Shown here: positions 11,408 to 63,197 of the stretch, piece after piece
How the letters are laid out: every line of letters begins with the position of its first letter
Position numbering within the stretch: the first letter of the stretch is position 1
NCBI GenBank assembly: GCA_903863885.1
Contig: CAIPEB010000306.1
Coordinates: 1 to 64,000 of the forward strand
DNA length: 64,000 nt
Reading direction: 5' to 3'
Source: an uncultured Planctomycetaceae bacterium
GTDB lineage: Bacteria; Planctomycetota; Planctomycetia; Pirellulales; Pirellulaceae
Notes under the pieces: generated by a model
Databases searched by the model: none
What the model was told of the DNA's origin: nothing
The model's input: the letters and a program-made list of their open reading frames with translations, nothing else
Translations under genes and position numbers: made by a program

Positions 11408-11426
11408 GGCGTGATGTCCTCAACTC

Positions 11427-39576: not shown

Positions 39577-39609
39577 GGTCCGGGTTCCCAGTTTCTTCAG
39601 CCGTAGTCT

Positions 39610-40186
39610 TTAAGTCGGCGTTAGGCAATGGGGATGATCGCGAGTTCAAATTGCCGAGGCCCTGAAGAGAGCCGCGTCTTCTCAGGATCACGGCTGCAGT
39701 TCGACGTTCGATACACCGCCGCTTGTCGATGACGCTCACGTTTTCGATCACCAGATCATCGCAGCGAGTCGCGCGAATTCCCTCGCTGGATGTTTCCATC
39801 TTGCCCTACGCACGCGTCAGCGTCAGATCGCGAACCACAATGCTCGAGGCATTCTCGATTTCGATGACCGGCTCGTCCGCCGTCTGCTGGATGATCCGCC
39901 CGGGACCGAACCGGCCGGTGCGGTCCTTGTTCAAAACGATCTTTCGCGTAATCAAATAATCGCCTGACGGCGGGTAAATCATCCGGCCGGAATTGGCGTC
40001 CAACGCGGCTTGAATGGACGGATACGACACCGCCGACAGCACCCCTGGTACGGGCTGTTCGGCGACCGCCTATGGCAGTAGTCCGCCGCAAGGCAGGACC
40101 AGCCAGGACAGCGGTGCAGCCAGCGGGGCGAGCAGCACGGCGGTGAGGACGGCGAGGGAGGATCTCGTGGTGGTGATTTGTCGCAT
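39610..40186 (-). pseudogene. Frameshifted right-handed beta-helix protein gene
   Basis: Starts ATG at 40186, ten bases after the upstream beta-helix gene. The first frame gives a recurring-type signal peptide (SLAVLTAVLLAPLAAPLS) and stops after 38 codons. A second frame resumes with SYPSIQAALDANSGRMIYPP, FGPGRIIQQTADEPVIEIEN and SIVVRDLTLTRA. A third frame continues with EGIRATRCDDLVIENVSVID and then decays. These are beta-helix coils with asparagine-ladder spacing, as in pectate-lyase-like enzymes. At least two frameshifts show it is non-functional. Confidence 0.72.
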
Positions 40187-40195
40187 TCTGGTTTC

Positions 40196-43740: not shown

Positions 43741-43795
43741 ATCGGTTCCTTTGATACTTCCATTTGCCGTCAGCCGCGGCGGTGACGGTTTGGCG

Positions 43796-44947: not shown

Positions 44948-45006
44948 TGCAGTCCCTGGGCCGCTCTGCAACTGGGCGACGAAGTTTGTGAGGGTGTGTT
45001 GCGTCG

Positions 45007-46719
45007 TCATTGATCCATACGTTCCGGCGTCATCGCCCAGCAGCGCAGGTCGGTGAACTCAACGGTCCCGCTTTTCGCAAACAACCCCATACGCCCTGAG
45101 GCTGGTCCGGTGACGCAGGTCTGGACGTAGAGGTCATCGAGATACAGTTCCCAGATGCCGTGCTTGACGAGCAGACGGAAGCGATGCGACGTGCCGCTGC
45201 GGACTCCGCAGGGAACCGCGTAGCCGAGAGGGCCGATGACGTCTTCCTGCGCGAAGCGGCTGAGGCCGAGATAGGGACCGCCGCGCTGGATGTTGCCAAA
45301 GGCGGAGACATGAAACTCATCGTTGTCAAAGGCGGGTTCGGGACGATACTCGAAGACGCCGGTGCGGGTGAGGCCGAGGGTCTCCAACTGCACGAGCATC
45401 CCTTTCCCGGGCGATTCCTCGAAGTAGACACCCGCCGCGGCCGCGTGCCAATGCGTGCCGATGACGGGACCGCGCGGCTCGGTAGCTTTGAGCGTGCCTT
45501 CGAGGATGATGCCTCGCCCGGGATCGAATTGCTCCGGCAGCATCGCGATGGCTCCGTCCCGACCGGCTTGCAGAGTGATCGCGTTGTTTCCGACGGGCGT
45601 GAGCGAGCAGAGCGTGCCGCGATGCTGCTGGGCCGGATGAGCGAACACGGCCTTGTCGGTGCTCACGGGCAAGACGGCGCCTTTCGCGGTCTCATTGCCC
45701 GGCCACCACGCGAGACGGGCGTGACCGCGTTGGTCGGTGATGAGCTTCTTGAGCGGACCTATCCGGAGGGACTGGCCGTTGCCCCAGATACCAGGGAACG
45801 AGTTGTCGAGAGTGGTGGTGATCCAATTGCTCACCAGAATCTCGCCTCTCCAGTGGAACGTCTTGGCCAGCCAATTCGTATCGCGTGTCGTGTTGCCGCA
45901 AAGGCGAAGGGTCTCCTTGTCCGGACGGAACGGGCCGGCGGGCGAATCGCTCACGAACATCATCACGGAAAAACCAAGCTGCCCCAGGTAGCTCCGCGAA
46001 CCCATGCCGAGATAGTAGCGTCCGCCGATTTTCTCGCAGAAGCAAACCTCCATCTGCTGCGGCGGCAGGCTGTCCCACTCGAAAACCGGCGGAGGTAATG
46101 GCTCCCACCGCACGCCATCGGCGGACTTCAACATGCCGAGGCTGTCCTGCGCCAGTCCGGGGCGCGGCTCGCTGGTGATGTAGCCGTAGAACTCTCCGCT
46201 ATCGTCGAGGATGACCAGCTCGTCCCACCGGCAACGATACCACCGCCTGTCGGGGCGCGTGGTGAATTCCTCGCCCATGAACTCCCAGTTTTTCAGGTCG
46301 CGGGAGCGATGCTGCCGCAAGACCACCGGATAGTCTTGGCGGTCGGCTCCTTGATTGAGTTCGCTGGAGAAGTAAACGAATTCCTTCCCGGTCCAACGCA
46401 CGCAATAACCGGCCAGTCCGTGTGCGAGCGGACAGGCAAAGGCATCGGCTTCGCGCCAATGCACGCCGTCGTCCGACTCGGCGATGGCAACGCCCAGCGG
46501 CCCGGCGTTTCTGCCGTCCGGCCCGAATCGCTGAACCGAGACCGCATTGAACAGCCGTCCATCACGCACGGCAATGGAATGGCTCCAAGCGGAGAATCGC
46601 TGGCTCCGGTCGGCGAGCAACGACGGTTGGTAAAACAGCGTGCTCTTGGTGTCGGCGGCGTGGAGCGCGGCCAGCGTTTCGAGCAGCAGGGCGGCGAGTA
46701 GTGTGGGGGTGAGTTTCAT
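45007..46719 (-). CDS. Exported GH32-like propeller protein with C-terminal beta-sandwich
   Basis: 570 residues. The signal peptide PTLLAALLLETLAALHAAD is of the recurring type. The first ~340 residues form a five-bladed propeller (SAWSHSIAVRDGRLFNAVSV, WTGKEFVYFSSELNQGADRQ, YRCRWDELVILDDSGEFYGY, MEVCFCEKIGGRYYLGMGSR). From about residue 390 a beta-sandwich follows (GIILEGTLKATEPRGPVIGT, RFRLLVKHGIWELYLDDLYV), as in GH32/GH68 enzymes. The substrate is unknown. It heads the minus-strand run of four exported enzymes, and the next gene starts at or near its stop. Confidence 0.8.
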   Translation of the reverse strand: MKLTPTLLAALLLETLAALHAADTKSTLFYQPSLLADRSQRFSAWSHSIAVRDGRLFNAVSVQRFGPDGRNAGPLGVAIAESDDGVHWREADAFACPLAHGLAGYCVRWTGKEFVYFSSELNQGADRQDYPVVLRQHRSRDLKNWEFMGEEFTTRPDRRWYRCRWDELVILDDSGEFYGYITSEPRPGLAQDSLGMLKSADGVRWEPLPPPVFEWDSLPPQQMEVCFCEKIGGRYYLGMGSRSYLGQLGFSVMMFVSDSPAGPFRPDKETLRLCGNTTRDTNWLAKTFHWRGEILVSNWITTTLDNSFPGIWGNGQSLRIGPLKKLITDQRGHARLAWWPGNETAKGAVLPVSTDKAVFAHPAQQHRGTLCSLTPVGNNAITLQAGRDGAIAMLPEQFDPGRGIILEGTLKATEPRGPVIGTHWHAAAAGVYFEESPGKGMLVQLETLGLTRTGVFEYRPEPAFDNDEFHVSAFGNIQRGGPYLGLSRFAQEDVIGPLGYAVPCGVRSGTSHRFRLLVKHGIWELYLDDLYVQTCVTGPASGRMGLFAKSGTVEFTDLRCWAMTPERMDQ

Positions 46720-46829
46720 CGTGTTGTCATTCCAGTCGGTTGGATTCCACCGCTTTCTTCGCTTCGGTGTCGCCTTGGTTGCCCTTCTTTTGGCTGTCGT
46801 GTTCGAGTTCGGCCGAACGATTTCGCAGA

Positions 46830-47027
46830 TCAGCCAACCCCGTCGAAGATTCGACCGAAGGTCGCCGTATCAGCGAAGCCGTGATGGACTACTGGGTGGC
46901 TTTCCTGCGGACCGGCAAGCCCCGTGCAGAAAATCTGCCGGTATGGCCGGCGTTTGCGTCATCGGCGCCCCAAGCGATGGTGTTCGGCAACTCCGGCATC
47001 GAAGCCAGAGGATTCCACAGTTCATGA
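46830..47027 (+). pseudogene. C-terminal remnant of a type-B carboxylesterase
   Basis: About 65 codons resembling the end of carboxylesterases: EGRRISEAVMDYWVAFLRTG, KPRAENLPVWPAF and QAMVFGNSG. The nucleophile Ser region is absent. It lies between the divergent starts of the propeller gene and the PHB-depolymerase remnant. Confidence 0.6.
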
Positions 47028-47098
47028 AACCACGAGGCGCTTTTCAAGTCACCACTGCGGTCTGCGTGGCCGTCATTGCATCGAGTGGGGCATCTGCC

Positions 47099-47556
47099 AT
47101 GCATCGATTGCTGTTGACCTTGTGCCTGGGCGAATTCGTGTTGCCCGCCATCGTTGCCGCTGCCGCCGCACCGAGCGCTGGAACAACGGCGTGGCGCACA
47201 AATACACCGGCGGCGTGAACAACTCCGACGACCTCGGCTTTTTCCGCGCGATGTTCGACAAGCTCATCGCGGAGGACGTCGCCGATGCGAAACGCATTTA
47301 CATCACGGGCGGCAGCAACGGCGGCGTGATGACCTACATGTTACTCAGTGAAATGGCGGATCGCATCGCCGGCGCGGGCGTCGTCGTGACCACACTGCCG
47401 GCGATTGTGAAAACGTGGCCGAAGCCCTCGCGCTCGGTGCCCATTCTCATCATGCTCGGCACGGCATACCTGATGATGCCGTGGAGCGGCACACGCGGCT
47501 TGCAGCAGGCGATATCCGCCCGCGATGTCCGCCCTGTTGGCCTCGGTTTACAATGA
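47099..47556 (+). pseudogene. Deleted PHB-depolymerase-like esterase gene
   Basis: The ATG at 47099 starts a signal peptide (MHRLLLTLCLGEFVLPAIVA). After about 30 codons the sensible frame shifts by one to the middle of an LpqC-type esterase: WNNGVAHKYTGGVNNSDDLG, then the nucleophile block RIYITGGSNGGVMTYMLLSE. After GTAYLMMPWSGT the sequence no longer matches and it stops at 47556. Both an internal deletion and a 3' truncation are visible. Confidence 0.65.
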
Positions 47557-47615
47557 CGTGGCAGAAGAGAAATCAGTACCAGTTTCCAAATCTCACGGCC
47601 ACACGGCGAACCAGC

Positions 47616-49046
47616 ATGACAACGGCTTGGGAGTCATCTCGGCGACGATTTCTCCAACAGATCGGTTGGTGGGGGTGTGGCCTGAGCCTGTCGGGAGGCT
47701 TGTCCGAATCACGTGGCTCAACATCGGGCCCTGGCCAGTTGTGGGAGAGTGTCGAATGGATCAAGGCGATTACCGATCCCGAGATTAGGAGCGGCGTCGA
47801 GACGGCGATCACCCGCAACCTGCTTCCGGCCGCCAGTGAACGCCAGTACCCAGGCCATTTCTCCATCACCGCCGACGGCGCCGCGTTTGGTGCCGATACC
47901 ACTTGGCCCGGTCTCGATTCCTGGCAGATGGCCGGTGCGTATCTGCACCTGGGTCGGCAACAACTCGTTTTGGACTACTTTGAATTCGTGCGTGCAGCGC
48001 AGCGCCGAGACGGCCATATTCCGTTCGCCATTTTTCCGGGTTCGACAAAGTCGGATGGCAAATGGCTCCGCGGTCTTCGAAACCCCGAGGACGTCTTCAC
48101 GTATCAGCCACCGCAGCGCGAAGGCGCAGCAGAGTCCAGCCAGCAGACAAAACAATGGGTGGGGCTCTTCGAGCACTGGCAGCCGAAGGCGAATCCGCTC
48201 AGCGTTCTCGGACCGGTCTGCTATCTGTTGACGGCTATGGAGATCTTCGAGCAGACACAGTCGGCCACTTGGTTGCAGGCTCGGATCGCATCATTGACGG
48301 CGGCGGCGCAGTACCTTGCCGATCACGCCGGTGACAACGGTCTTATCTCAGGCTCGGGGTTCTATATGGAAATGCCGCCTCGCTTCGGCTGGGACGGCAT
48401 AACGCAGTGTTATGTGGTCCACGCCTGGCGTGCCTTGAGTCGATTGTGCGGTTCGGCCGGAGACGGGGACGGTCAGTTGAAGTGGGAGCAGCTGGCGAAT
48501 CGGTTGCGAGACCGGTTCGCGGACATGTTCTGGCGCGATGATCACTTCGCCGAGTACGTGCATCAGGAGCGCGGCGTGGTCGATGCGCACGGGCTCTCGG
48601 ACGTCAACTGGGCCGCCGTGGCGTTTGGCCTCGCGGATCACGGTCAGATTGCTCGTCTGTGGCCGCGACTGATGAAGGAAGACGGGTTCTGGGTCGGAAA
48701 AATGCCCACGCAGATCGTCACGCGCCCTTTCAGTTACGAAGCTTGGGAGCTGCATGAGCCTCTGCCATTTCCCACCACGTCGCCACTGAATGACATCGCG
48801 GCCATGGGTCGGGTGTGGTACCTGGAGGCGCTTGCCTGCCGGCAGCAAGCCGCGCACGAACGCCTGTTGACCTCGCTGCGGCACGTCTGCCGCGCCGCTT
48901 CGGCGGAGGGTTACTGGCGCGAACGCTACCACCCGCGACCGGACGGTTCGGTTGTACCGGCCGGTGCCGAAAAATACTGCGAATATCCAGCGGTATTGGT
49001 GCGCATCGCGTTTGCTTGCCGAGCATGCCTTGGTGACGGGACCTGA
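47616..49046 (+). CDS. Tat-exported alpha/alpha-toroid protein (glycosidase-like)
   Basis: 476 residues from the ATG at 47616, chosen because it puts the twin-arginine signal SSRRRFLQQIGWWGCGLSLS at the N-terminus. The body is an alpha/alpha toroid: TWPGLDSWQMAGAYLHLGRQ, LSVLGPVCYLLTAMEIFEQT, RFGWDGITQCYVVHAWRALS, GLSDVNWAAVAFGLADHGQI and RPFSYEAWELHEPLPF. It resembles glycogen-debranching or GH63/GH37-like toroids. No catalytic assignment is safe. It is convergent with the GH38 gene (65 bases apart). Confidence 0.72.
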   Translation: MTTAWESSRRRFLQQIGWWGCGLSLSGGLSESRGSTSGPGQLWESVEWIKAITDPEIRSGVETAITRNLLPAASERQYPGHFSITADGAAFGADTTWPGLDSWQMAGAYLHLGRQQLVLDYFEFVRAAQRRDGHIPFAIFPGSTKSDGKWLRGLRNPEDVFTYQPPQREGAAESSQQTKQWVGLFEHWQPKANPLSVLGPVCYLLTAMEIFEQTQSATWLQARIASLTAAAQYLADHAGDNGLISGSGFYMEMPPRFGWDGITQCYVVHAWRALSRLCGSAGDGDGQLKWEQLANRLRDRFADMFWRDDHFAEYVHQERGVVDAHGLSDVNWAAVAFGLADHGQIARLWPRLMKEDGFWVGKMPTQIVTRPFSYEAWELHEPLPFPTTSPLNDIAAMGRVWYLEALACRQQAAHERLLTSLRHVCRAASAEGYWRERYHPRPDGSVVPAGAEKYCEYPAVLVRIAFACRACLGDGT

Positions 49047-49111
49047 GTCACAACGTGTCGGCCTTCGATGCTTCACGCCGGAGCATGACGCACGCGCACC
49101 TTTCCGGCGAC

Positions 49112-51979
49112 TCAATCCGCTGCCGGCGGATGGCCGACCAGGTTCGGGTGCCTGGCGTTGCGCATGAATGCCCGTTTGGACTCGGGAATCAGTCGCTCGA
49201 ACGATCGAATGGGTTCGGGAGCCGGCACGCGGCCCGCCGTCCTCAGTCGCAGCGTCACGATTTCCTGCGGTCGCAGATCGAGTTCATAAGCGGGACCGCC
49301 CGGCAGTTCCACGCGGTTCGCGCCGCGCACATCGGTTCGCACGGATGCCGTGTGGGGCAGACGCACCTCAATGCGGCCCTTACCGCTCAGCCCCAGGCAC
49401 TCCACCAGTCGCACTTCAATTTCGTCTTCCACCCGGCGTATTGACTCGATGATCACGTTGGAGGATGTGTCGCAGAAACTCGCGGCTGGCGCGCTGAACC
49501 CGGCCCGCGCGATCACCGGCATGTTGTATTCCCACGCCCATTGCGGCACTTCGGCAGCTTCCCAGTCCTCCGCGTGTGCGAGCAGCGCATATTCGTACGT
49601 TTGCGTGCCCCGCCCGCTCATCCATGCCGACGGCTGGCTGAACTCCCGGTCGTGGATCCTCCATGTCAGGGCATACGCATCGCAGACGTTGTGCAACAGC
49701 AGCAACGGTGTGTTGTCCACCAACTCGCGTCCCGGCACACCCCGGTCGAGCAGCGCTACACCTCCGCCACCTTTCAGGGCATAGTCGGAATAGCGGATGG
49801 CCGGCACAATTCCGCGGACCTTCGCCGCCGTCGCCGCATCGGGTCTTGAAGCGTCACCGACCGAGAACCCGAAGGGAATTCCGCGGTGCACTTCCCGGAT
49901 CGTCTCCGCCAGAGGAAACTCCACCGAGACGACCGTACCATCCGGCAAGTCCGTGGTCGCTGTCACGAAGTCGATCCGCGGTGAGTGGCGGTAAAACCGC
50001 ATGACACGGCGCAGCGCACTGCCACCATGAAAAGGTGAGTGTACCTCGACAATCGTGGCCAACGGCCCCTCCGTGACCTGGATCGTGGGACGAATCTCGC
50101 TGGAACTGGCTAATCGCGCGCGTTGGGCCTTGGCGGGGAGCGCGTGCGGGTCGCTCTTGGTTTCCATCAGCACGACATTCGCCGGACCGCCCAGGACCTC
50201 GCGTCCCGATGGCTTGAGCCGCAAGCTGATCAGCGCGCCAGTGGTCGGATCGACTTGGGCGACGTAATGGTCCGTCGCGATGGCTGCGGGAACCTGGTCT
50301 GTCGGCGCGGGCGGCGGACCGGCGGAGGTAAATTTCAGCGACGTCAGCGCCATCGATTCCATCGGCAGTTCGACCAGCGTCGTGCTGGCGTTGATTAGTG
50401 ACTGGCTCACGGGACCGGCGAGCGTCTGCCCCGCGGGCAGTTGCAGTTCGACCGGCGCACGGCGAGCGTGGTTGGCGGGGTTAAACAGGACAACCGAATC
50501 GGCCGCGTCCCGCGCCAGGCTCTGCAGCGATTGCCGCATTGCCTGATCGGCATTCGCTTCCACGTAGTCAAAGCGATCCGACGTGTCCCAGCTGTTAGGG
50601 TCGGCAAACGAGGCATCCACTCCCGCACCCCACAAGACGTTGCGGTCCATGTTGAGCGCCATCAGGAACCAGGAATCGGCGAACTCCTGGGATGGATAGC
50701 TCGCCTGCCCGCGGAGACTTCCGATCGTCGTCAGCATTTCGGCGGCCTGCAGCAGATGTTCGTCGCGGCGATACCGTTGCTTCACTCGCGGCATGCTGAC
50801 CCAAAAGGCGCTCCATCCGTACTTGCTTGAGGCCATCGCGGTGGGCAGCTCCACGTTCCGGTCACGGATCAGCGGCATCACCGCGTCCAGGTACGCACCA
50901 AAGGTCGTCAGCCGCAGCGGCATGTCGGGCGACAAGCGATCCCACTCGGGAATCAGTTCCGCCGGATAACGCGGATAGCGGAACGGAAGTGAATAATCCC
51001 ACTCGCCGCCGAAAATGATCGGTGGTATGCCCGTGGGAAAACGCTGGCGATTGGCGCTCGCCACGGCGATGCACTTGCGCAACTCTTCCTCGCCCACCGC
51101 CTGTGGACTGCGAAACAATGGCTGGAATTCCACGTCGCAGTAGAGGCCGGGACTCACCGCCAAGACGCGCGAACCGTCCGGCGAGACAGCCCAGTGCAGG
51201 GCCGAACCCGATTTGACTTCATCCCAGTTGGTAAGTGCCGGCGCTCCGGTCGGCGGCGGGCCGGTGGGGTTGAAGCGACAGTAGACCAAGGCCTCCAGCC
51301 CCAACTGCTTCGTGATCTGGGCCATCTGCTCGTGCCAGCCGCAAAGGTCGATCATCCACGCCGTGCGCGGCTTCTGCTGCAACACCTGCTCGTACCATCG
51401 CAGTCCCAATACACCCTGCTGCACGAGCGCTTCACCGCCCGACAGACTGACAGTCGGTTCGAGCACAAACGCGTTGGCCAGTTCCACCCGTCCTTCGGCA
51501 ATGCGCCGTTTCAATTCGGCCAGACGCTCCGGTTCGTACTCCATCATCGTGATCAGGTGCGGGATCTCGGACATCACGAAACGGTACTGCGGATCGGCAT
51601 TTACTCGATCCAGGTGGGCCAGGTACGAGTACAGGCCGAAGTTGCGCTCCTCCGCGTAACTGACGAGCCATCCCATGCACGCGTCGTGAAAATTCGGCAG
51701 CAAATAACAAGGCACCGGTTCCGTGGGCGCGACCGGTCCGGCTCCGTCGTCAGTCTGTGTCGCGGCAGCGGCCAAGGAAGTAGCCGTGCCTGCGGGTCGG
51801 TCGTGCGGAGCCGAAGTGTCTTGCGCTCGCGCGATTCCGGCTGCGGTGAAACCGGTCGCCAGCACGGCGAACATGATCGACAAGTGACAACCGTTTCCCA
51901 GGATCAAGCGGAGCTTGCTGCTCGGTGTGGTCGGCTCTTGGTGACATCGTTGGGTCATCGCTCTGTTATCACGTTTCAT
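49112..51979 (-). CDS. Exported GH38-like alpha-mannosidase
   Basis: 955 residues from the ATG at 51979, with AGGAAA about 9 bases upstream. The signal is at residues 25-52. The catalytic alpha/beta barrel starts at LLPNFHDACMGWLVSYAEER, where the usual H-x-D metal site reads as FHDA. It continues with YRFVMSEIPHLITMMEYEPE, RVELANAFVLEPTVSLSGGE and the nucleophile region RTAWMIDLCGWHEQMAQITK (Asp in WMID). The C-terminal ~550 residues are the beta-sandwich domains typical of GH38. It would remove alpha-linked mannose. The altered HxD-type site deserves attention but the rest of the catalytic signature is kept. Confidence 0.82.
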   Translation of the reverse strand: MKRDNRAMTQRCHQEPTTPSSKLRLILGNGCHLSIMFAVLATGFTAAGIARAQDTSAPHDRPAGTATSLAAAATQTDDGAGPVAPTEPVPCYLLPNFHDACMGWLVSYAEERNFGLYSYLAHLDRVNADPQYRFVMSEIPHLITMMEYEPERLAELKRRIAEGRVELANAFVLEPTVSLSGGEALVQQGVLGLRWYEQVLQQKPRTAWMIDLCGWHEQMAQITKQLGLEALVYCRFNPTGPPPTGAPALTNWDEVKSGSALHWAVSPDGSRVLAVSPGLYCDVEFQPLFRSPQAVGEEELRKCIAVASANRQRFPTGIPPIIFGGEWDYSLPFRYPRYPAELIPEWDRLSPDMPLRLTTFGAYLDAVMPLIRDRNVELPTAMASSKYGWSAFWVSMPRVKQRYRRDEHLLQAAEMLTTIGSLRGQASYPSQEFADSWFLMALNMDRNVLWGAGVDASFADPNSWDTSDRFDYVEANADQAMRQSLQSLARDAADSVVLFNPANHARRAPVELQLPAGQTLAGPVSQSLINASTTLVELPMESMALTSLKFTSAGPPPAPTDQVPAAIATDHYVAQVDPTTGALISLRLKPSGREVLGGPANVVLMETKSDPHALPAKAQRARLASSSEIRPTIQVTEGPLATIVEVHSPFHGGSALRRVMRFYRHSPRIDFVTATTDLPDGTVVSVEFPLAETIREVHRGIPFGFSVGDASRPDAATAAKVRGIVPAIRYSDYALKGGGGVALLDRGVPGRELVDNTPLLLLHNVCDAYALTWRIHDREFSQPSAWMSGRGTQTYEYALLAHAEDWEAAEVPQWAWEYNMPVIARAGFSAPAASFCDTSSNVIIESIRRVEDEIEVRLVECLGLSGKGRIEVRLPHTASVRTDVRGANRVELPGGPAYELDLRPQEIVTLRLRTAGRVPAPEPIRSFERLIPESKRAFMRNARHPNLVGHPPAAD

Positions 51980-54113: not shown

Positions 54114-55136
54114 TCAACTCGAACATGACGCATCCGTGGGGGGCGGGAGGCGGCTGCCCGACGCGCCCCGGAGCGTGTCGGACGGCAGTTCGCGGAACAA
54201 GCGGCGGTAGTCCCCGGCGAAATTCCCCGCGTGATGGAACCCCAACGCCCCGGCCACGTCCGCGATCACGGCGGCCGGGTCCGCCCGGAGCCGCGACCGG
54301 ACGGCGTTCAGCCTGAGGTACTTGAAGTAGGCCATCGGCCCAAGCCCGGCCCGTTCACGGAACGTCCGCCGGAGGTTCCGGTCGCTGACCCCGAGTTCCC
54401 GGCAGAGATCGATTGCCCCGACCGGATCGCTGAGGTGGGCCCGCATGAACTCCTCAGCACGGCGGAACATGTGTGACCGTGCAGCCAACGACAGGTACGG
54501 TTGTGGAGTGGCCGCTGAGAACATCGCGGCAATAATTGCCCGCACGCACTCCTGTTCGAGCCGGTCACCTTCCGGTGTTCCCAGGAGGGTCGGATCTGTT
54601 ACCCCCTGATTCAGCAGGCTGGCGATGTGTTGGCAGAGACGGGCGAAGCTTTCAGGAGGTGGCGAATGCGCGGTCCAATGTCTGGGTAAGGCCACCGCGT
54701 CCGTCGCCAGCAGCGACCTGGCCGTTTCCAAGAGAGTGTCAGTACGGAGGAATGCCCCTTGGTAGTCCGTCCGCCGTGCCGTGACGTGATTCGCCTCGCC
54801 ATCCGCGTCGTCGAGAACGAGGTGGCCCGGGGAGAGTCGGCGACCTTCCCACAGGCTCCCGCAATTCCCGGCGGTCACCGGAAAAATGGAGAACATGTCA
54901 GAGGCGTCGTGACCGCGGAGTGAGAGGCGCTGGTTGGCCTTGATCTCGATGGTACGAACAAGCCCACCTTGTACAACGCGGAGTACACCCTCGAAACGGC
55001 CGCTGGAGATTTGTTCGAACCGACCCTGCCAGTTTGAAAACAGCGCGCCCACCTCGTCGAAATCCACAAGGGGAATGACCTGGGCGGCAGGCTGTTCAAA
55101 GATCGGCTCGTGCGATCCGGACATCGTTATTTCCAT
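54114..55136 (-). CDS. AraC-family regulator divergent from the DUF1254 operon
   Basis: 340 residues from the ATG at 55136 (ATG at 55124 is an alternative). The N-terminal ~190 residues are an AraC ligand-binding region (DFDEVGALFSNWQGRFEQIS, GRFEGVLRVVQGG, FSIFPVTAGNCGSLWEGRR). The C-terminal HTH pair is at about 225-325 (EFMRAHLSDPVGAIDLCREL, VSDRNLRRTFRERAGLGPMA, VIADVAGALGFHHAGNFAGD). It probably controls the DUF1254/DUF1214 genes, whose first member starts 309 bases away on the other strand. Confidence 0.9.
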   Translation of the reverse strand: MEITMSGSHEPIFEQPAAQVIPLVDFDEVGALFSNWQGRFEQISSGRFEGVLRVVQGGLVRTIEIKANQRLSLRGHDASDMFSIFPVTAGNCGSLWEGRRLSPGHLVLDDADGEANHVTARRTDYQGAFLRTDTLLETARSLLATDAVALPRHWTAHSPPPESFARLCQHIASLLNQGVTDPTLLGTPEGDRLEQECVRAIIAAMFSAATPQPYLSLAARSHMFRRAEEFMRAHLSDPVGAIDLCRELGVSDRNLRRTFRERAGLGPMAYFKYLRLNAVRSRLRADPAAVIADVAGALGFHHAGNFAGDYRRLFRELPSDTLRGASGSRLPPPTDASCSS

Positions 55137-55445
55137 CTGGCAACCGGCCTGACTTCTTTGCACGGTGCGGTTCGGGCATTCGGCTGAGCAAGTCTGTGCC
55201 GTTCGTCTTCAGGTGCGGCGATCGCTTTTCGGGAAGACCCACGACCGGACTCATCGTACGCAAGCGACGACCACCCCCCTCAGAGTTCCAAGGTCCGGAA
55301 TTGGTGCAACCCATCGCCAGTTCTACGGTTTGGCCAATTTTGGATCCTGCAGGCTTTACGCATAGCTAGAATCGTAAATCTAGTCAATATTTTTCCTCAA
55401 CCCCACTTGCTTTGTCTCATTTGGCCCTTTTGGAGGTTCGCGATT
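55137..55445. promoter_or_regulatory. Divergent promoter region for AraC regulator and DUF1254 operon
   Basis: 309-base region between divergent genes. A noticeably AT-rich patch at about 55360-55400 (TAGAATCGTAAATCTAGTCAATATTTTT) sits 50-85 bases upstream of the first DUF1254 gene, where a promoter is expected. No operator repeats could be defined by eye. Confidence 0.4.
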
Positions 55446-56978
55446 ATGCGCACCCGTACGCATCTGACATGCCTGACCGCTGGTGCAGCCCTCGCCCTAC
55501 TGGTCGCAGCTCAACTCACCCGCGACAGTCACGCCCAGGACGAAACGCCTGGTGGGAAACGTGCCACCAAACCGGAGCAATCCTTGCCGACCAACGGCAC
55601 CGTCGAATCTCGCATCGGGCCATTGGCGTTCGAAGGGGGGTACCCGACCGACGCCACCGTCACCAAGCTGTACGACGAGATGGACTTCCAGCGGGCCGTG
55701 CAGGCCTACGTGTGGGCGATCCCGATCGTCTCCTTCGCGAAGTGGCAGGAGCAGCACGAGACCGTGTTCGGCCAGCAGGACGGCGACCTCGTGCAACTCG
55801 AGAGTTTTCGTGACCGGATGGGATTCCTCACGCCCAACGACACCACGACGTACCTGGTTGGCTATGTGAACCTCGAGCGGACGGGTCCGCTGGTAATTGA
55901 CTACCCGAAAGGTCCGACGGCCGGCGGCATCCTCGACATGTGGCAGCGTCCGATCACCGACCTGGGCTTGGCCGGTCCGGACCGGGGCGAAGGGGGCAAG
56001 TACTTGGTGGTGCCGCCCGGCCAAAAGGCCCCCAAAGATGCCGAGGGCTACCGCGTCTTCGAGTCTCCCACGAATAACCTCTTTCATGGGTTCCGCGGGC
56101 TGAGCAAGGACCCGAAGGAAGCGAAATCGCTCAACAGCCAGTACCAAGTGTACCCGTTCGCCAAACGAGACAATCCCCGCAAAACGCGGATCATTCCGGC
56201 AGCCGACAAGAAATGGTATGCCTGGCCGACCACCGGACTCGAGTTCTGGGAATTGCTTTCCAAGATGCTCAACGAGGAACCGGTCCACGAGCGCGACCGC
56301 ATGATGGTGGCCATGCTCAAGCCGCTGGGCATCGAGAAGGGCAAGAAGTTCGAGCCGGACGCGCGGCAGAAGAAGATCCTGGAACAGGCGGCGGTGGTCG
56401 GCGAGGCAATGGCGCGAGCCAACACGTATGCCAATCGCGATAAGGAAGCCCGACTCTGGGGATCCGACAGCCAGTGGAAGCTGATCATCCTCTGCGAGGC
56501 CAACCAGGAAGCGAAGTATCACACTGCCCTGGATGAGCGTTCGGCCTACTTCTACGAAGCGGTGGCGCTGTCCGACGGAATGACCACGAAGACGCCCGGA
56601 GTCGGCCAGGCCTACATGGGCATCCGGAAGGACAAAGACGGCGGGTGGTTGCAGGGCGGCAACAATTACACGCTTCGCGTTCCGCCGAACGCCCCCGCCA
56701 AGCAGTTCTGGGCGATGACGCTGTACGACACCGAGACCCGCAGCTTCATCGACACCAAGCACGACATCGCCGGGCTCGACTCCCGCAAAGACCTGGTCAA
56801 GAACGACGACGGTTCCGTGGACCTGTACTTCGGCCCGGAGGCGCCGAAGGGCAAGGAAAAGAACTGGGTACCGACGGCCCCCGGACGCGGCTGGTTCGGT
56901 CTCTTCCGCCTCTATGCGCCGACCGAAGCCTACTTCGATCGGAGCTGGAAACTGCCGGATCTCGTTCGCGTTAAGTGA
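55446..56978 (+). CDS. Exported DUF1254-DUF1214 protein 1
   Basis: 510 residues from the ATG at 55446, with GGAGG about 10 bases upstream. A signal peptide ends in DSHAQDE. The DUF1254 domain (about 80-250) shows QRAVQAYVWAIPIVSFAKWQ, FLTPNDTTTYLVGYVNLERT and GPDRGEGGKYLVVPPG. The DUF1214 domain (about 350-505) shows KTPGVGQAYMGIRKDKDGGW, AKQFWAMTLYDTETRSF and VDLYFGPEAP, ending KELGW-like (NWVPTAPGRGWFGLFRLYAP). The pair of domains occurs widely in bacteria and archaea, but the biochemical role is unknown. Confidence 0.92.
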   Translation: MRTRTHLTCLTAGAALALLVAAQLTRDSHAQDETPGGKRATKPEQSLPTNGTVESRIGPLAFEGGYPTDATVTKLYDEMDFQRAVQAYVWAIPIVSFAKWQEQHETVFGQQDGDLVQLESFRDRMGFLTPNDTTTYLVGYVNLERTGPLVIDYPKGPTAGGILDMWQRPITDLGLAGPDRGEGGKYLVVPPGQKAPKDAEGYRVFESPTNNLFHGFRGLSKDPKEAKSLNSQYQVYPFAKRDNPRKTRIIPAADKKWYAWPTTGLEFWELLSKMLNEEPVHERDRMMVAMLKPLGIEKGKKFEPDARQKKILEQAAVVGEAMARANTYANRDKEARLWGSDSQWKLIILCEANQEAKYHTALDERSAYFYEAVALSDGMTTKTPGVGQAYMGIRKDKDGGWLQGGNNYTLRVPPNAPAKQFWAMTLYDTETRSFIDTKHDIAGLDSRKDLVKNDDGSVDLYFGPEAPKGKEKNWVPTAPGRGWFGLFRLYAPTEAYFDRSWKLPDLVRVK

Positions 56979-57061
56979 CGTGTTCGCCTGCCTCCGGTCG
57001 CGATGCGAAACTCGCGGCCGGAGACCTAAGGCAGACTTCAAACCTCATGGGGAGACTCCTT

Positions 57062-59548
57062 GTGCGTATGACATCACTCACCGTAGCCGCTTCGGCCATT
57101 CTGCTGTTCGCCCTGGTGACTCTCAGCCAGGCCCAGGAAAAGGCTCCTGGGGTCGTCGTGACCCAGGAAACCTACTGTCGGGCTGAGACGGACCGGACGT
57201 TCAACAATACCATCAAGCTCACGGGCGGGGTCAACCGCTTCTATCACTTCCGCAAAGTCACCCCTCTCGACAACCAAACAGTCGTGCGGATGAACCGCGA
57301 CACGCTGTACTCGCCTGCCGTTGTGGACACGTCCAAGGGGGCGACGATCACGGTGCCGAAAATGCCGGATGGTCGCTACTGTTCGGTCTTGTTGATTGAC
57401 AACGATCACTACTGTCCGGGAGTGATCTACGAGGCGGGAACGCACCAACTGCCCCACCATACGAAGTACCTGGGCGTGCTCGTGCGGATTCAACTGCTCA
57501 AGCCGACCGATCCAGAGGACGTGAAACTGGTCAACTCCCTTCAAGACAAATTGGAAATCAAGGCGGAGAGCGCCGACCCGTTCCCCGAGCCGAAGTGGGA
57601 CGCGGCCTCGCTGGAGAAGCTGTCCGCCATCTACAAAGCCGAATTTGCCAAGTACAACAAGTACCCCGACGGTTTCATGGGCGCTCGGGGCGTAGCGGAC
57701 GAGAAGATCCGGCACATCGCCTGTGCCGGGGCCTGGGGCCTGTTTCCAAACGAGCACGCGGTTTACATCAACTACAACGCCGGTTTACCGGCCAAGGGGC
57801 ACCACACCGCAACGTACAAGGTGCCCGAGAACAACGCCTTCTGGTCGATCACCGTGTATGGCGCTGATGGATACATGAAGAGCGACAATGCCCTCCTCAA
57901 TGGATCAAACACAAAAATGAACCCGGACGGCACGTTCACGGTGCATTTCGGCTCCAAGGAGGATTGCGGCGACCTACCGAACCGGCTCGACGTGAGCGAC
58001 GGCTGGAACTTCCTGATGCGAGTCTACCGGCCAGGGAAGTCCGTGTTGGACGGCAGCTATAAGCTCCCGGAGGTGACCCTCGCAAAGACCGCGCAGGGCA
58101 ACTCGCTTGGCGGGAAACCGAAATACGCGGCGGACGTTCCCCAATCGATCCTGACCCCGGACGTCGTGAAGACAGAGCGGCTGGGCGACCTGAACTTCTT
58201 CGACGGGTTGCCGTCGGAGGAGACGACCAAGAAGGTGTACGACTACCTCGATACCGCGCGGGGTGTGGACGCCTTCCTGAACGGCATGCCGGCGGCCTCC
58301 ATCCAGGCCTTCATCCAAGGCATGAAGGACGTGGGGATGGACACCTACAGCATGGGCATCCACGGCGGGTTGATGGACGCCCAGTCGTTGTGGCTCACGC
58401 CGAACACCACCACCATCTACTGCGTGGCCGAGATCAACGTGAAGGACGGGCCGACGGTCATGGAGGTTCCGCCGGGGGTTCTGGGGCCGGTCGATGACGC
58501 GTACTTCCGCTGGGTGACCGACATCGGCCTGACCGGCCCGGACAAGGGCAAGGGCGGCAAATACCTGTTCCTGCCGCCGGGTTACAAGGGGGACGTCCCC
58601 GATGGCTACTTCGCGGTCCGCACGCGGACCTTCCGCAACTGGCTGCTCATGCGCGCCTTCGTGATCGACGGCGACGGCGAGAAGACCATCAAGAGTGTGA
58701 AGGCCGGCTGGCGGCTCTACCCGTTGTCGGAGGCGAAGAAGCCCCGGGAACCGCACTTCGTGGATCTGACCGGCAAAAAGTACAACACGATTCACGCGAG
58801 CGATTACAAGTTTTTCGAAGAGCTGAACGAAGTCGTGCAGTATGAGCCGGCCGACGCGTTCGACCCGGAAATCGTCGGTCAGTTCGCGGCGATCGGCATC
58901 AAGAAAGGGAAGCCCTTTACCCCCGACGCGCGGATGAAGAAGATCCTGACCGAGTCGGCGGCGATCGGGAACGCGGCGGCGAGGGCGATCTCCTTCCGGC
59001 CCCGCAAGAAGTCACTGTACTTCTACGAGGATCGCCAGTGGTACTCGCCGTTCGCGGGCGGGAGCCACGAGTTTACGAACAACGGCGAACAGGTACTCGA
59101 CGACCGCATCATCTTCCACTACATGGCCACCGGCATCACCCCGGCCATGGCCCAATCGGCCGTGGGCCAAGGGTCCGCCTACGCGTTCACTGCCCACGAC
59201 CAGAAGGGCAAGTACCTCGACGGGGGCAAAACCTACAAGGTGACCCTGCCCAAGCCGGTCCCCGCCAAGGCTTTCTGGTCGTTTGTTGTGTACTCGACCC
59301 AGCACCGAAGTCTGCTGGAGACCGACCAGAGGAGTGCGGGCGTGGATAGTAACAGCCCAGACCTGAAACCGAACGCGGATGGTTCTTACACCGTCTACTT
59401 CGGGCCGAAGCCTCCGCCGGGGAAAGAGGGCAACTGGGTCCAAACCATGCCCGGCAAGGGGTGGTGTGTTCTGTTGCGACTCTACGGCCCACTCGAGCCG
59501 TGGTTCAACAAGACCTGGAAGCCTGGTGACATCGAGCTGGTCGAGTAG
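57062..59548 (+). CDS. Exported double DUF1254-DUF1214 protein
   Basis: About 828 residues from the GTG at 57062 (GGGAGA upstream). Signal near residues 1-25 (MTSLTVAASAILLFALVTLS). It holds two complete units. Unit 1 (about 30-340) is a compact form: VRMNRDTLYSPAVVDTSKGA, GRYCSVLLIDNDHYCPGVIY, NNAFWSITVYGADGYMKSDN. Unit 2 (about 370-825) is the longer form shared with its neighbours: MDAQSLWLTPNTTTIYCVAE, GPDKGKGGKYLFLPPGYKGD, AKAFWSFVVYSTQHRSLLET, VYFGPKPPPGKEGNWVQTMP. The two halves differ enough that a recent duplication is unlikely. Confidence 0.9.
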   Translation: MRMTSLTVAASAILLFALVTLSQAQEKAPGVVVTQETYCRAETDRTFNNTIKLTGGVNRFYHFRKVTPLDNQTVVRMNRDTLYSPAVVDTSKGATITVPKMPDGRYCSVLLIDNDHYCPGVIYEAGTHQLPHHTKYLGVLVRIQLLKPTDPEDVKLVNSLQDKLEIKAESADPFPEPKWDAASLEKLSAIYKAEFAKYNKYPDGFMGARGVADEKIRHIACAGAWGLFPNEHAVYINYNAGLPAKGHHTATYKVPENNAFWSITVYGADGYMKSDNALLNGSNTKMNPDGTFTVHFGSKEDCGDLPNRLDVSDGWNFLMRVYRPGKSVLDGSYKLPEVTLAKTAQGNSLGGKPKYAADVPQSILTPDVVKTERLGDLNFFDGLPSEETTKKVYDYLDTARGVDAFLNGMPAASIQAFIQGMKDVGMDTYSMGIHGGLMDAQSLWLTPNTTTIYCVAEINVKDGPTVMEVPPGVLGPVDDAYFRWVTDIGLTGPDKGKGGKYLFLPPGYKGDVPDGYFAVRTRTFRNWLLMRAFVIDGDGEKTIKSVKAGWRLYPLSEAKKPREPHFVDLTGKKYNTIHASDYKFFEELNEVVQYEPADAFDPEIVGQFAAIGIKKGKPFTPDARMKKILTESAAIGNAAARAISFRPRKKSLYFYEDRQWYSPFAGGSHEFTNNGEQVLDDRIIFHYMATGITPAMAQSAVGQGSAYAFTAHDQKGKYLDGGKTYKVTLPKPVPAKAFWSFVVYSTQHRSLLETDQRSAGVDSNSPDLKPNADGSYTVYFGPKPPPGKEGNWVQTMPGKGWCVLLRLYGPLEPWFNKTWKPGDIELVE

Positions 59549-59717
59549 CCGGGGTGGCTGGCTGAAGCAACCGTCAGGGCCTACTTTCATCTGTGCTGGA
59601 AACTGACGAATCTCGTTCCCGTCAAGTGACGTGTTCCCCGCTCTCTGGTCGCGACGCAAAACTCGCGGCCGGAGAGCGGTTCATGTGTTCGGTCAACGTC
59701 TTTCTCAGGAGTCCATC

Positions 59718-61196
59718 ATGACCACCAGGTTTGCGGTCCTTCGTCTTGCCGGGGTCACACTGATCCTCGGCTGCCTCGTCGCCCTCTCTCTGGAGCCGGC
59801 TGTGACCGCACAGGACAAATCGCCAGGCGGCCAGCCGCTCCCCGGCACCAAACAATCCGTTGCTGATCTCGAAGAGCAGGTCGCCTACCACCGGGCATTC
59901 GAGGCCGTCGTTTGGGCCATGCCGGCGTCGGCCATGCAGCGGTTCCGCCAGGGAGTGCTCGCCCTGCCGGGCGTCGAAGACAACGTCATCCTGGCGTATT
60001 CGGACACGTTGCGGACGAAGCACAAAGCCATCACCGCCAACACGGCGACACCTTACATCGCAGCGGTGACGGACCTCCGCAAGGGGCCGGTAGTGCTGGA
60101 AGTGCCTGCCGTGTCGGAGAAGGCCAGCCTGTACGGCCAGGTCGTCAACGCCTGGGAAGCCACCATCGCGGGGGTCGGACCTGTCGGGGCGGACAAGGGG
60201 AAGGGCGGCAAGTACCTGCTCATCCCTCCCGGGTACAAGGAAAAGATTCCCGACGGCTATTTCCCGATCCGAAGTTCGACGTACCGCATCGTCCTGGTCT
60301 TTCGCTCCATCCCGGCAAAGGGGGCGACGGCGGCCGATGCTTACGCCTACACGAAGACGCTGAAGATGTACCCGCTGGCCGAGTCGGCCAACCCCAAGCC
60401 GACCAAGTTCGTGGACGGGCTGCCCATCCCTGTGTACACGCTGCCCTACTACGACATCCGCGCCCTGCAGGACATCCACGACATCATCAGCGTGGAGCCC
60501 GTGGACGCGCGGGACAAGGTGATGATCGGGATGCTGGCCACGATCGGCATCGAGAAGGGCAAGCCGTTCAACCCGTCGCCGAAGATGAAGGCGGCGATGG
60601 AGCGGGGCGTCGTCGATGCCTATCACTACATCCAGAAGCTCACCCGCGACCTGCATGAGAAAAACCTGTGGTGGCCCGATCGCAAGTGGGCCTTCGTCAT
60701 GGTTCCTGACGAGAAGCGAGGCTTCGAGTTCGTCAACGATCGGGCCGTGGAGGTGGACAAGCGGGCCGCCTGCTGGTTCTTCTACACCTTCTACCCGGCC
60801 GTCCTCGACGAGACGGCCGGCACAGTGTACCTGGCGCCAATCGCCGACACGGACGGCAAGCCGCTAGAGGCCGGCAGCCTTTACCGCATCCGGGTCCCGA
60901 AGGACACCCCCGCCAAACAGTTCTGGTCGATCACGGTATACGACAACGCCAACTGGGGCTTCATCGAGAACCCCCAGGATCGATCTGGGTTGGGGACGTT
61001 CGACAAGGACAAGATGAAGGTCAACGACGACGGCAGTGTAGACATCTATGTCGGGCCGAAAGCTCCTGAAGGCCTCGAATCCAACTGGATTCCCACGATG
61101 GACAAAAAACCATACATCTGGCTACGGCTGTACGGCCCGGACGAGCCGTTCTGGAAGAAGACCTGGAAGATGCCCGACGTCGAACTTGTGAAGTAA
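59718..61196 (+). CDS. Exported DUF1254-DUF1214 protein 3
   Basis: 492 residues from the ATG at 59718 with AGGAG about 8 bases upstream. A signal peptide ends at VTAQDK. The DUF1254 domain has EEQVAYHRAFEAVVWAMPAS, KHKAITANTATPYIAAVTDL and GADKGKGGKYLLIPPGYKEK. The DUF1214 domain has AKQFWSITVYDNANWGFIEN, DGSVDIYVGPKAPEGLESNW and ends IWLRLYGPDEPFWKKTWKMP. About 32 bases separate it from the next gene, so cotranscription is likely. Confidence 0.92.
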   Translation: MTTRFAVLRLAGVTLILGCLVALSLEPAVTAQDKSPGGQPLPGTKQSVADLEEQVAYHRAFEAVVWAMPASAMQRFRQGVLALPGVEDNVILAYSDTLRTKHKAITANTATPYIAAVTDLRKGPVVLEVPAVSEKASLYGQVVNAWEATIAGVGPVGADKGKGGKYLLIPPGYKEKIPDGYFPIRSSTYRIVLVFRSIPAKGATAADAYAYTKTLKMYPLAESANPKPTKFVDGLPIPVYTLPYYDIRALQDIHDIISVEPVDARDKVMIGMLATIGIEKGKPFNPSPKMKAAMERGVVDAYHYIQKLTRDLHEKNLWWPDRKWAFVMVPDEKRGFEFVNDRAVEVDKRAACWFFYTFYPAVLDETAGTVYLAPIADTDGKPLEAGSLYRIRVPKDTPAKQFWSITVYDNANWGFIENPQDRSGLGTFDKDKMKVNDDGSVDIYVGPKAPEGLESNWIPTMDKKPYIWLRLYGPDEPFWKKTWKMPDVELVK

Positions 61197-61228
61197 CGTT
61201 GCAACCATCCCGTTCGTAGGAGCTGATT

Positions 61229-62722
61229 ATGGGATTGGAACTCTCTGCCTCTCGTCTTTCCCGGACCGCACTGGTCCTCGGCTGTCTCGTCGTGTTTTGG
61301 CTGTCGCCCACCCTGAGCGCGCAGGACAAGAAGTCCGAACGAGGCACCTCGCCCGCGAAGCAATCCGAAGCTGTGTCGTTTCAAGACCTCGAGCGACAAG
61401 TCCTGCAACATCGCGCCCTCGAAGCGGTGATCTGGGGCATGCCGGCGGTCAACCGCGATCTCATGTACCAGGCGATGCTCCGCGAGACCAAGGGCCGGGA
61501 CAACCAGCTGCTCTACTGGTCGAAGCTGCTCGACTGGAAGAACCAGACCCTCACGCCCAACACCGACGTGATCTATCTCACGCCGCACTTCGACACGAAG
61601 GACGTGGGACCGGTCGTGATGAAGATTCCGGCGGCCGACGGGGGCGCCATCGTGGGCACCATCATGGACGCCTGGCAGACGCCGCTCGAGGATGTGGGAC
61701 CCGCCGGCGCGGATAAAGGTAAGGGCGGGAAGTACCTCATCCTCCCGCCGGACCACACCGCCAAGGCGCCCGACGGGTACATCGTTTTGCCGTCGTCGAC
61801 GTACAAAGGTTATGCTCTGCTGCGGTCGATTCGGAAGAGCGGTAGCGACGAGGACATGGCCAAGGCAGTGGAGTACGGCAAGCGGATCAAGATTTACCCC
61901 TTGTCGAAGGCGGACAATCCGCCGCCGACGACCTACGTGGATGCCGCCGGCGTCCTGTACGACGCGACCATCCCGTATGACATCCGCTTCTTCGAGTCGC
62001 TCAATCGCGTGATCCAGCACGAGCCGCGGCTGGAGCGCGACCGGGTCATGATCGACACGCTGCGGTCGCTCGGCATCGAGAAGGGCAAGAAGTTCGCCCC
62101 CGATGCGAAGATGACCCAGACCCTGAACGCCGCCGCCAAGCAGGCGCACGGATATCTCGAAGGGAGGTATTACGAGCTCGTCAGCAAAGGGCCGTTCGCG
62201 AAAGGAAGTCGGTGGTCATTCCCTGAGCGGATGGGGCTCGTCTTCAAGGCGGGCCAGAACCAGTTTGCGGAGCCCAACTTTTACCCGGTCGAAGATCGAG
62301 GCCTGCTGCTCTCGTTCATCTTCTTCCTGCCCAAGCGTCTGGGTGAAGGCCAGTTCTACCTGATGGGTATTGAGGACAAGGAGGGCAACCCACTGGACGG
62401 CAGCAAGACGTATCGGCTGAACGTGCCGGCCAATGCCCCCGCAAAGCAGTACTGGTCGGCGACGCTGTACGATCGGGACACTCACGCGCTCATTCGCCAG
62501 ATGTCGCACGCAGCCCGTTCCTCGCAGACCCCGGGATTGCAGGTCAATACGGACGGATCGGTGGATCTGTACTTCGGCCCGAAAGCCCCAGCGGGCAAAG
62601 AGTCGAACTGGACCCCCACGGATCCCAAGGGGGAATTCGAGATCCTGTTTCGGTTCTACGGCCCTCTTCCGTCACTCTTCGACAAGACCTGGGTACTGCC
62701 GGACGTCGAGCCCGTGAAGTGA
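61229..62722 (+). CDS. Exported DUF1254-DUF1214 protein 4
   Basis: 497 residues from the ATG at 61229 (TAGGAG about 9 bases upstream). A signal peptide ends at TLSAQDK. It is most like the preceding gene: ERQVLQHRALEAVIWGMPAV, NQTLTPNTDVIYLTPHFDTK, GADKGKGGKYLILPPDHTAK, AKQYWSATLYDRDTHALIRQ and VDLYFGPKAPAGKESNW. The last ~10 residues (TWVLPDVEPVK) match the ends of the other copies. It is the last gene of the array. Confidence 0.92.
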   Translation: MGLELSASRLSRTALVLGCLVVFWLSPTLSAQDKKSERGTSPAKQSEAVSFQDLERQVLQHRALEAVIWGMPAVNRDLMYQAMLRETKGRDNQLLYWSKLLDWKNQTLTPNTDVIYLTPHFDTKDVGPVVMKIPAADGGAIVGTIMDAWQTPLEDVGPAGADKGKGGKYLILPPDHTAKAPDGYIVLPSSTYKGYALLRSIRKSGSDEDMAKAVEYGKRIKIYPLSKADNPPPTTYVDAAGVLYDATIPYDIRFFESLNRVIQHEPRLERDRVMIDTLRSLGIEKGKKFAPDAKMTQTLNAAAKQAHGYLEGRYYELVSKGPFAKGSRWSFPERMGLVFKAGQNQFAEPNFYPVEDRGLLLSFIFFLPKRLGEGQFYLMGIEDKEGNPLDGSKTYRLNVPANAPAKQYWSATLYDRDTHALIRQMSHAARSSQTPGLQVNTDGSVDLYFGPKAPAGKESNWTPTDPKGEFEILFRFYGPLPSLFDKTWVLPDVEPVK

Positions 62723-62978
62723 AACCTCGTCTGCCTTCGGGCCTCGCCAACGGCCAGCCGACAACACCGACGCCAGTTGCGCCGAGCGTCTAAACTGCTC
62801 CGGTGAAACACACCGCTGTAGTTGCGCCCAGGCTCTTTCGCATTTTCCCCCAGGGTTGGCCCGCGTTGCGTCCGGCCGGAATGCGGCACCTTATCGGAAG
62901 GCGTCCGGTGGAATGCGGTCGGGGCGGCGGTGTAGATTCGCTGGCGAGCGCGCCGATGGGATGTCGGGGGACACGCTC

Positions 62979-63197
62979 ATGGCGGGTCGTGCACGGTCCG
63001 CAGCGGAACAACGGTGGCGTGATCGGATGCGGCGCTGGCCACAGTCCGGATTGAGTGGTCACGAGTTCTGCGCGCAAGAGGGAGTTGGCGAACCGTGCTT
63101 CCATCATTGGCGTCGCAGTTTTGGGCAAGCGCCGAAGCGATGGCAAGGGAGGCGTATCCCAAAGGCCTCTCAGCTCGTCCCCAGTTTCTACCGGTAG
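62979..63197 (+). pseudogene. tnpA: IS66-type accessory TnpA remnant
   Basis: About 72 codons from the ATG at 62979: AAEQRWRDRMRRWPQSGLSG, HEFCAQEGVGEPCFHHWRRS. This matches the HTH of IS66-family TnpA (SGLSxxxFCxxEGVSxxxFYxWRRRL). Sequence resembling the expected tail (FLPVEIVEP) lies one frame over after about 63180. No TnpB or TnpC follows, so the element is a fragment. Confidence 0.65.

Follow-up and report, generated by a model that had tools for sequence, protein, structure and literature searches.

The window analysed here, a stretch of 64,000 nucleotides from an uncultured Planctomycetaceae bacterium (contig CAIPEB010000306.1), contains an array of four consecutive genes, U1 to U4, which encode DUF1254-DUF1214 proteins predicted to be exported and which lie divergent to a gene for an AraC-family regulator. 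On balance we favour the view that this array is a horizontally assembled cassette in an organosulfate-responsive regulon, and that its proteins work on sulfated substrates jointly with sulfatases whose genes lie elsewhere. The observations that lead to this proposal are the units themselves, the recurrence of such arrays at other loci, the linkage of sulfatases both to relatives of the AraC gene and to DUF1254 genes, an operator-like motif that probably recurs in the window, and the mosaic make-up of the array. Pfam confirmed the gene content given in the initial annotation, namely five two-domain units in four exported (predicted) genes, one of them double, together with the divergent AraC gene. 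Both domains were detected in all four array genes (E 8e-24 to 9e-43, above the curated cut-offs), with DUF1254 preceding DUF1214, and the second gene, U2, has two stretches of each, in a short unit (U2a) and a full-length unit (U2b). The divergent gene encodes an AraC-type helix-turn-helix at its C-terminus (PF12833, 66 bits against a cut-off of 33.6). What is new about the array is its arrangement; the family to which its units belong is known but uncharacterised. Loci and genomes used for comparison are given L and G numbers respectively.

Most relatives of the AraC regulator adjoin sulfatase genes

A search of 397 genomes of the class yielded 17 homologues of the window AraC protein outside its own genome at E ≤1e-40. 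Fifteen of these loci were fetched, the matches in G488 and G515 being left out, and were searched for sulfatases in six frames. The 15 regulators are 35-58% identical to that of the window. A sulfatase frame directly adjoins the AraC gene in 14 of the 15 loci (L198-L205, L210 and L212-L216). It is divergent in 13 of the 14, and in L204 it lies downstream on the same strand; in the exception, L211, sulfatases are 5.8 kb off. Pfam identified as sulfatases the adjacent frames in L198, L200, L202 and L204 and another frame in L201. As a control, other AraC sites from five genomes of the window organism's own family were inspected, and 1 of 20 had a sulfatase anywhere within the 5-7 kb fetched (two of the 20 stretches were shorter, owing to contig ends). 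Six more remote AraC homologues were also inspected with roughly 1.4 kb of flanking sequence, and three of them have a divergent sulfatase. The regulators of the 14 AraC-sulfatase loci presumably target the adjacent sulfatases, whereas the window AraC gene has no adjacent sulfatase and adjoins DUF1254-DUF1214 units instead.

Homologues of the array genes were found behind some of these sulfatases. In L198 the AraC gene is followed by a divergent sulfatase, a second sulfatase and a homologue of U4, and in L200 by a divergent sulfatase, one small frame and a U4 homologue. L209 has two sulfatases and then a U4 homologue. The U3 homologue in L197 is accompanied by a divergent AraC gene of lower similarity (E 5e-18), and no sulfatase was found in the 12.9 kb around it.

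Conservation of the AraC gene within the organism's own family was also considered and was ruled out. At E ≤1e-20 the window protein has matches in 5 other genomes out of 149, with 27-31% identity, and its close homologues sit in other families of the class.

The AraC-U1 gap holds a candidate match to an operator-like motif of the AraC-sulfatase loci

The initial annotation gave the divergent region as 309 bases. This length holds from the in-frame ATG at 55136, and becomes 282 bases when the gap is measured from the GTG start of the AraC gene at 55163. When the window gap was compared with those of six relatives, the best shared 14-mer had a mismatch sum of 17, against 21-25 in 12 shuffles, and the best shared 18-mer a sum of 28, against 36-39. 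Starting from relatives only (L199, L200 and L202) gave the same motif, with sums of 12, 8 and 15 against 22, 26 and 26 when each was shuffled once. The motif, TTGCCGNTTTTGGATA, occurs at two or fewer mismatches, and in one orientation, in the regions of 10 of the 15 relatives. L204 has an additional copy, with one mismatch, between its AraC gene and its sulfatase, and the motif is present in 11 of the 14 AraC-sulfatase loci.

A matrix built from the ten relatives' sites, and from none in the window, was used to scan both strands of the 64 kb. The top score, 18.7 bits against 15.5 for the next site, fell at 55330 (site 1 in Table 1), inside the AraC-U1 gap and in the orientation seen in the relatives; a second copy in the gap at 55420 (site 2) ranks fourth. 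When 120 other loci (1.86 Mb) were scanned, three contained a site that outscores the one in the window; the highest-scoring of these, in L039, is located downstream of its units and not in front of them. A relaxed pattern, built to include the window site, has one exact match in the organism's own 11-Mb genome, at 55330. Site 2 and the ribosome-binding region of U1 overlap, so binding there could result in repression.

Sulfatases are linked to DUF1254 loci in several phyla

DUF1254-DUF1214 proteins are spread over many bacterial phyla, and DUF1254 is present in 52 of 119 sampled genomes of the organism's own family. The family is also described from fungi and an alga (PMC4634964). Genes neighbouring DUF1254 loci were clustered, with L001-L008 and the near-duplicates L059, L093, L094 and L112 left out. 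The largest neighbour family, joined by single linkage, comprised 53 members from 41 loci. Five members were scanned with Pfam (one each from L044, L061 and L088, two from L047) and all five are sulfatases; a C/S-x-P-x-R-type sulfatase motif is present in 34 of the 53 and absent from the other 19, some of which are partial members. None of the scanned neighbour clusters was a glycosidase.

A sulfatase lies within five genes of the units in 36 of 116 unit-bearing loci, a set that counts the window and still includes overlapping or near-duplicate loci. In a set of 80 loci the corresponding figure is 19, counting five loci with no gene-called unit (L086, L109, L129, L150 and L152). In L081 a short unit, a full unit and a sulfatase stand in that order. 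Genes in the loci were called longest-frame-first, so that in GC-rich loci some of the units and sulfatases escaped detection. Linkage was compared with expectation in 31 genomes that contain from 1 to 44 sulfatases each. A sulfatase is found within 6 kb of the units in 15 of the 31 genomes, against 0.69 expected, and immediately adjacent to them in six, against 0.13 expected. In several phyla, sulfatases accompany DUF1254 genes much more often than expected. The initial annotation had stated that nothing in the array reveals its role; the sulfatases beside most relatives of its AraC gene and beside many DUF1254 genes now offer an indication. Our search of open-licence literature found no paper tying the DUF1254/DUF1214/VPA0735 family to sulfatases.

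Other genes recur in the neighbourhood of the units. Regulators in the 116 loci include AraC genes of two clusters in 21 (window counted) and TetR genes in seven. In seven loci of the organism's own family (L046, L052, L056, L063, L068, L069 and L072) the DUF1254 units are immediately preceded by a TetR gene, and the scanned member, from L063, has an EthR-like C-terminal domain. Genes for DUF2092, annotated as predicted periplasmic proteins, are present in seven of the 116 loci and lie near DUF1254 in L104, L107, L119, L128 and others. Among 182 matching plasmid records, five regions were examined: in one, an alpha/beta hydrolase and an arylsulfatase come after a pair of DUF1254 genes, two have DUF2092 upstream, and two have neither DUF2092 nor a sulfatase arrangement. 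In three Pseudomonas loci (L095-L097) a DUF1254 pair is located between AraC genes and genes for an acyl-CoA dehydrogenase, an AMP-ligase and a short-chain dehydrogenase (L096 was scanned), with a sulfatase further along in two of the three. Such a context suggests that the substrate may be a sulfated lipid or a similar compound.

Origin of the array

The four full-length units of the window are 31-39% identical to one another. In a 72-row maximum-likelihood tree that drew on 42 hand-picked loci, U1 groups with units of L074 and L079, U2b with L079, U3 with L063, L090 and L042, and U4 with L074 and L041. Judged from these comparisons the window units are old paralogues and, because each has closer kin elsewhere, the array is a mosaic. 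Adjacent same-strand pairs at other loci are also mixed, 46 of 51 joining different subfamilies. The five same-subfamily pairs compare with 4.1 expected from random label pairing, which is neither excess nor avoidance (the subfamily cut omitted L001-L038, L059, L060, L066, L093, L094, L112 and units with fewer than 300 aligned residues). Recent tandem amplification was considered and is ruled out by the low identity between the units and by the mostly different subfamilies of neighbours elsewhere, and the amplification in place suggested by the initial annotation has to be given up.

In DNA sequence U3 shares 94.4% identity over 1434 bp with a gene of G240 (L197), a genome from another family of the class; that gene has 63% G+C within a stretch of 57%. 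For U4 the identity is 86-89% to genes in G219, G275 and G478, also of other families, and just 81% and 74% to genes in two genomes of its own family. The U4-like genes at 86-89% identity, in L198, L200 and L209, come after sulfatases. Because the DNA of U3 and U4 is so near to genes of other taxonomic families, this pattern points to horizontal exchange. The end of U1 and the spacer behind it recur in the U2-U3 gap as a 97-nt direct repeat with 85% identity between the copies, which is probably a recombination scar between U2 and U3.

U3-like genes (E ≤1e-70) were found in 28 of the 397 genomes of the class, own genome counted. The organism's own genome has eight DUF1254 stretches, five of them in this array. 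In L078, on contig C569 of the same genome (4552-6652), a DUF1254 gene is divided between two frames of 334 and 291 amino acids and is perhaps broken.

In the initial annotation the diverged units were proposed to form a dedicated exported system controlled by the AraC regulator, to be judged by conservation of the arrays. Multi-unit DUF1254-DUF1214 arrays do recur at other loci; the exact set of window units was not met again among the fetched loci, in a search that was not exhaustive. With the operator-like site in the gap, these recurring arrays lend the proposal partial support.

Fold and conserved core of the units

The units were compared with solved members of the family, U2a and U2b by fold and U1 and U4 by sequence, while U3 entered only as the first row of profile A2. 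U1 and U4 match the Vibrio protein VPA0735 at E 7e-123 and E 4e-61 respectively. The double U2 protein was modelled with a mean pLDDT of 83 and a pTM of 0.62, and its predicted U2b lobe superposes on VPA0735 at Z 46 with 34% identity. Modelled alone (pLDDT 88), the U2a lobe has VPA0106 (3u07) as its top fold match, and the U2a family profile matches the sequence of 3u07 at E 2e-28. U2a is a short form, nearer VPA0106 than VPA0735. The VPA0735-like entries 2p3y and 3vb9 of the Protein Data Bank are named just uncharacterised or hypothetical proteins, and the window differs in having five such units with one gene double. VPA0106, which U2a resembles by profile and fold, and 6ans are both uncharacterised, and their identity to U2a in fold alignments is only 16-19%. 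Past 2p3y, 3vb9, 3u07 and 6ans, the fold search gave weak matches alone, for example to jelly rolls and seed globulins. VPA0735-like has been named as a fold (PMC2744874), and COG5361 is mentioned without a tested role in passages of PMC13125312 and PMC10686091.

An alignment of 185 units has twelve residues with conservation of 98% or more: Asn132, Tyr137, Arg218, Tyr391, Asp397, Tyr409, Trp423, Tyr428, Asp456, Asn474, Arg489 and Tyr491, numbered by the aligned U1 stretch. The core comprises Asn, Tyr and Arg in DUF1254, and Tyr, Asp, Trp, Asn and Arg in DUF1214. In 18 short units, Asn83, Tyr88, Arg147, Tyr271, Arg325 and Tyr327 are invariant. Every window unit, U2a included, retains the core residues; in U3 an Asn replaces one mostly conserved Asp (165 in U1, 94% conserved). 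In these alignments the conserved core looks like a binding or active site. Pfam found DUF1254 and DUF1214 alone in the units, with no PF00884 sulfatase domain and no glycoside hydrolase domain.

Layout and surroundings of the array

The features of the array are listed in Table 1. Starts of the four unit genes were chosen from the reading frame and the N-terminus, and all four N-termini resemble Sec signal peptides as judged by eye. The spacers between U1, U2, U3 and U4 are 68, 169 and 32 bases long. The terminator-like sites listed on the plus strand all lie outside the spacers, so that a single transcript for U1-U4 is plausible.

Table 1. Positions of the AraC gene, the four unit genes and associated sites in the window
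Feature	Position	Strand	Basis or remark
AraC-family regulator, HTH_18, 349 aa	54114..55163	-	Pfam PF12833, E 4e-18
Operator-like site 1, candidate match to TTGCCGNTTTTGGATA of AraC-sulfatase gaps	55330..55347	+	Matrix scan
Operator-like site 2, weaker, overlaps U1 ribosome-binding region	55420..55437	+	Matrix rank 4
U1, exported (predicted) DUF1254-DUF1214 protein, VPA0735-like	55446..56978	+	Pfam, sequence match
97-nt direct repeat, copy 1 (U1 end and spacer)	56928..57024	+	
U2, double gene: short U2a (~57047-58100) fused to full U2b (~58106-59548)	57047..59548	+	Pfam, models
97-nt direct repeat, copy 2 (non-coding relic of U1-type gene end and spacer)	59579..59675	+	Between U2 and U3
U3, exported (predicted) unit	59718..61196	+	Pfam, DNA comparison
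U4, exported (predicted) unit	61229..62722	+	Pfam, DNA comparison

Right behind the array is a small frame (62856-63197) without a Pfam match, which we take to resemble an IS66-type accessory protein; a mobile element may have assisted the arrival of the cassette. The array comes after two stretches of carbohydrate-degrading genes (5250-13211 and 37241-51979), which include GH3, SASA esterase, sulfatase (11427-13211), fucosidase-like, rhamnosidase-like, MGH1-like and GH38-like genes. A second AraC gene, with a cupin-type sensor domain, is located at 38707-39576 near the fucosidase-like gene.

Discussion

For the binding of the motif by AraC, the sulfated inducer, the chemistry of the units and the sign of control, we propose the following scheme. 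An inducer, probably a sulfated breakdown product, would bind the AraC protein, which most likely recognises the TGCC-N-N-TTTTGGAT-type site predicted in the gap and, from there, would turn the rightward genes U1-U4 on or off. In the relatives, the slot under this control would hold one or two sulfatases, with a U4-type gene behind in two fetched cases; in the window it would be wholly occupied by the five DUF1254-DUF1214 units. The exported units would act on sulfated substrates of the glycan or lipid type, as enzymes or as substrate-binding partners, and their partner sulfatases would be made elsewhere in the genome, which has 55 PF00884 matches. Each paralogue may serve a different substrate or be a partner in a mixed pair. 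A Chlamydomonas orthologue of a Malassezia PF06742 gene is described as rising sharply under sulfur depletion (PMC4634964), which fits the sulfate reading. We regard as doubtful a bolder version, in which DUF1254-DUF1214 proteins constitute a widespread and so far undescribed class of enzymes that are exported and process organosulfates, and in which the five units here, brought together by horizontal exchange, replace sulfatases under a sulfatase-type AraC switch, as functional substitutes or obligate partners.

Several observations weigh against a sulfate-related role. There is no sulfatase in or beside the window array, the nearest one listed on the contig being 41 kb away, and 80 of the 116 DUF1254 loci have none within five genes, although many loci are cut by contig ends. 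The 31 genomes were chosen with knowledge of the neighbour clusters, so that the P values of that test are not clean, and those genomes that are related to each other are not independent. The AraC control was unmatched for family, and the AraC gene and sulfatase of its sole positive, L230, themselves look like a divergent pair. As to the motif, 4 of the 15 AraC loci have no copy of TTGCCGNTTTTGGATA at two or fewer mismatches, 3 of the 15 positions of the window site depart from the consensus, and the relaxed pattern with one mismatch occurs 20 times genome-wide against 10 in the control, only a twofold difference. Moreover, the U1-U4 pair of L074, from the organism's own family, adjoins a different AraC gene with a different motif. 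The AraC proteins of L074 and of L041, which has a U4-type gene, form a separate subgroup and are 60% identical to each other. Beside them is the 16-base motif GCCGAAAYTACGTAGA (L041 3906-4960, L074 4545-4737), exact copies of which occur in these two genomes at these loci only. Finally, other DUF1254 genes are listed as iron-, NnrR- and bacteriocin-responsive (PMC3751524, PMC6710368, PMC12791056), so that one common role for the family is not certain.

The main rival to the sulfate reading is the proposal that the units are glycosyl hydrolases, with the jelly roll of DUF1214 carrying a sugar-cleaving site and the array forming a glycan-degrading operon in a carbohydrate island. Jelly-roll domains are accessory in beta-galactosidase-type enzymes, which counts against this proposal. 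U2a does weakly resemble beta-galactosidase jelly rolls by fold, but these matches rank after its true relatives and have low TM-scores (0.05-0.32), and Pfam found no glycoside hydrolase domain in the units. GH3, GH38-like, MGH1-like, rhamnosidase-like and fucosidase-like genes are indeed present in the window; across the DUF1254 loci, however, the largest neighbour cluster consists of sulfatases and no scanned cluster of glycosidases. The proposal draws on homology modelling of the Malassezia PF06742 gene, which belongs to the same DUF1214 family and is described as secreted, but which is fungal and mostly a single gene; a glycosyl hydrolase was predicted there (PMC4634964). We consider it unlikely that the window units are glycoside hydrolases.

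The units could instead constitute a general exported stress or envelope system with no link to sulfate, whose regulators and neighbours change from locus to locus. Such a system would account for the variety of regulators, with two kinds of AraC in 21 of the 116 loci (window counted) and TetR in 7, and for the other family members in iron-, NnrR- and bacteriocin-responsive gene lists. It would leave unexplained a sulfatase linkage well above expectation in several phyla and the sulfatases at 14 of the 15 fetched homologues of the window AraC gene, and we judge it quite unlikely. That the AraC gene is a remnant of a lost sulfatase operon, beside which the array arrived by chance and outside its control, would agree with the lack of a sulfatase at the locus and with the recombination scar and signs of lateral transfer in the array, but is very improbable in view of the two motif copies in the same orientation between AraC and U1 and of L198 and L200, where U4 homologues come after sulfatases beside an AraC gene of this type.

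The sulfate reading, in which the units work alongside sulfatases, gives the DUF1254-DUF1214 family a concrete and testable role through its linkage to sulfatases by way of a regulator subgroup and a motif. The family has solved structures, and a function for it was not found in the open-licence papers searched. If the reading is true, bacteria with many sulfatases would re-use one switch for other exported proteins by means of cassette swaps.

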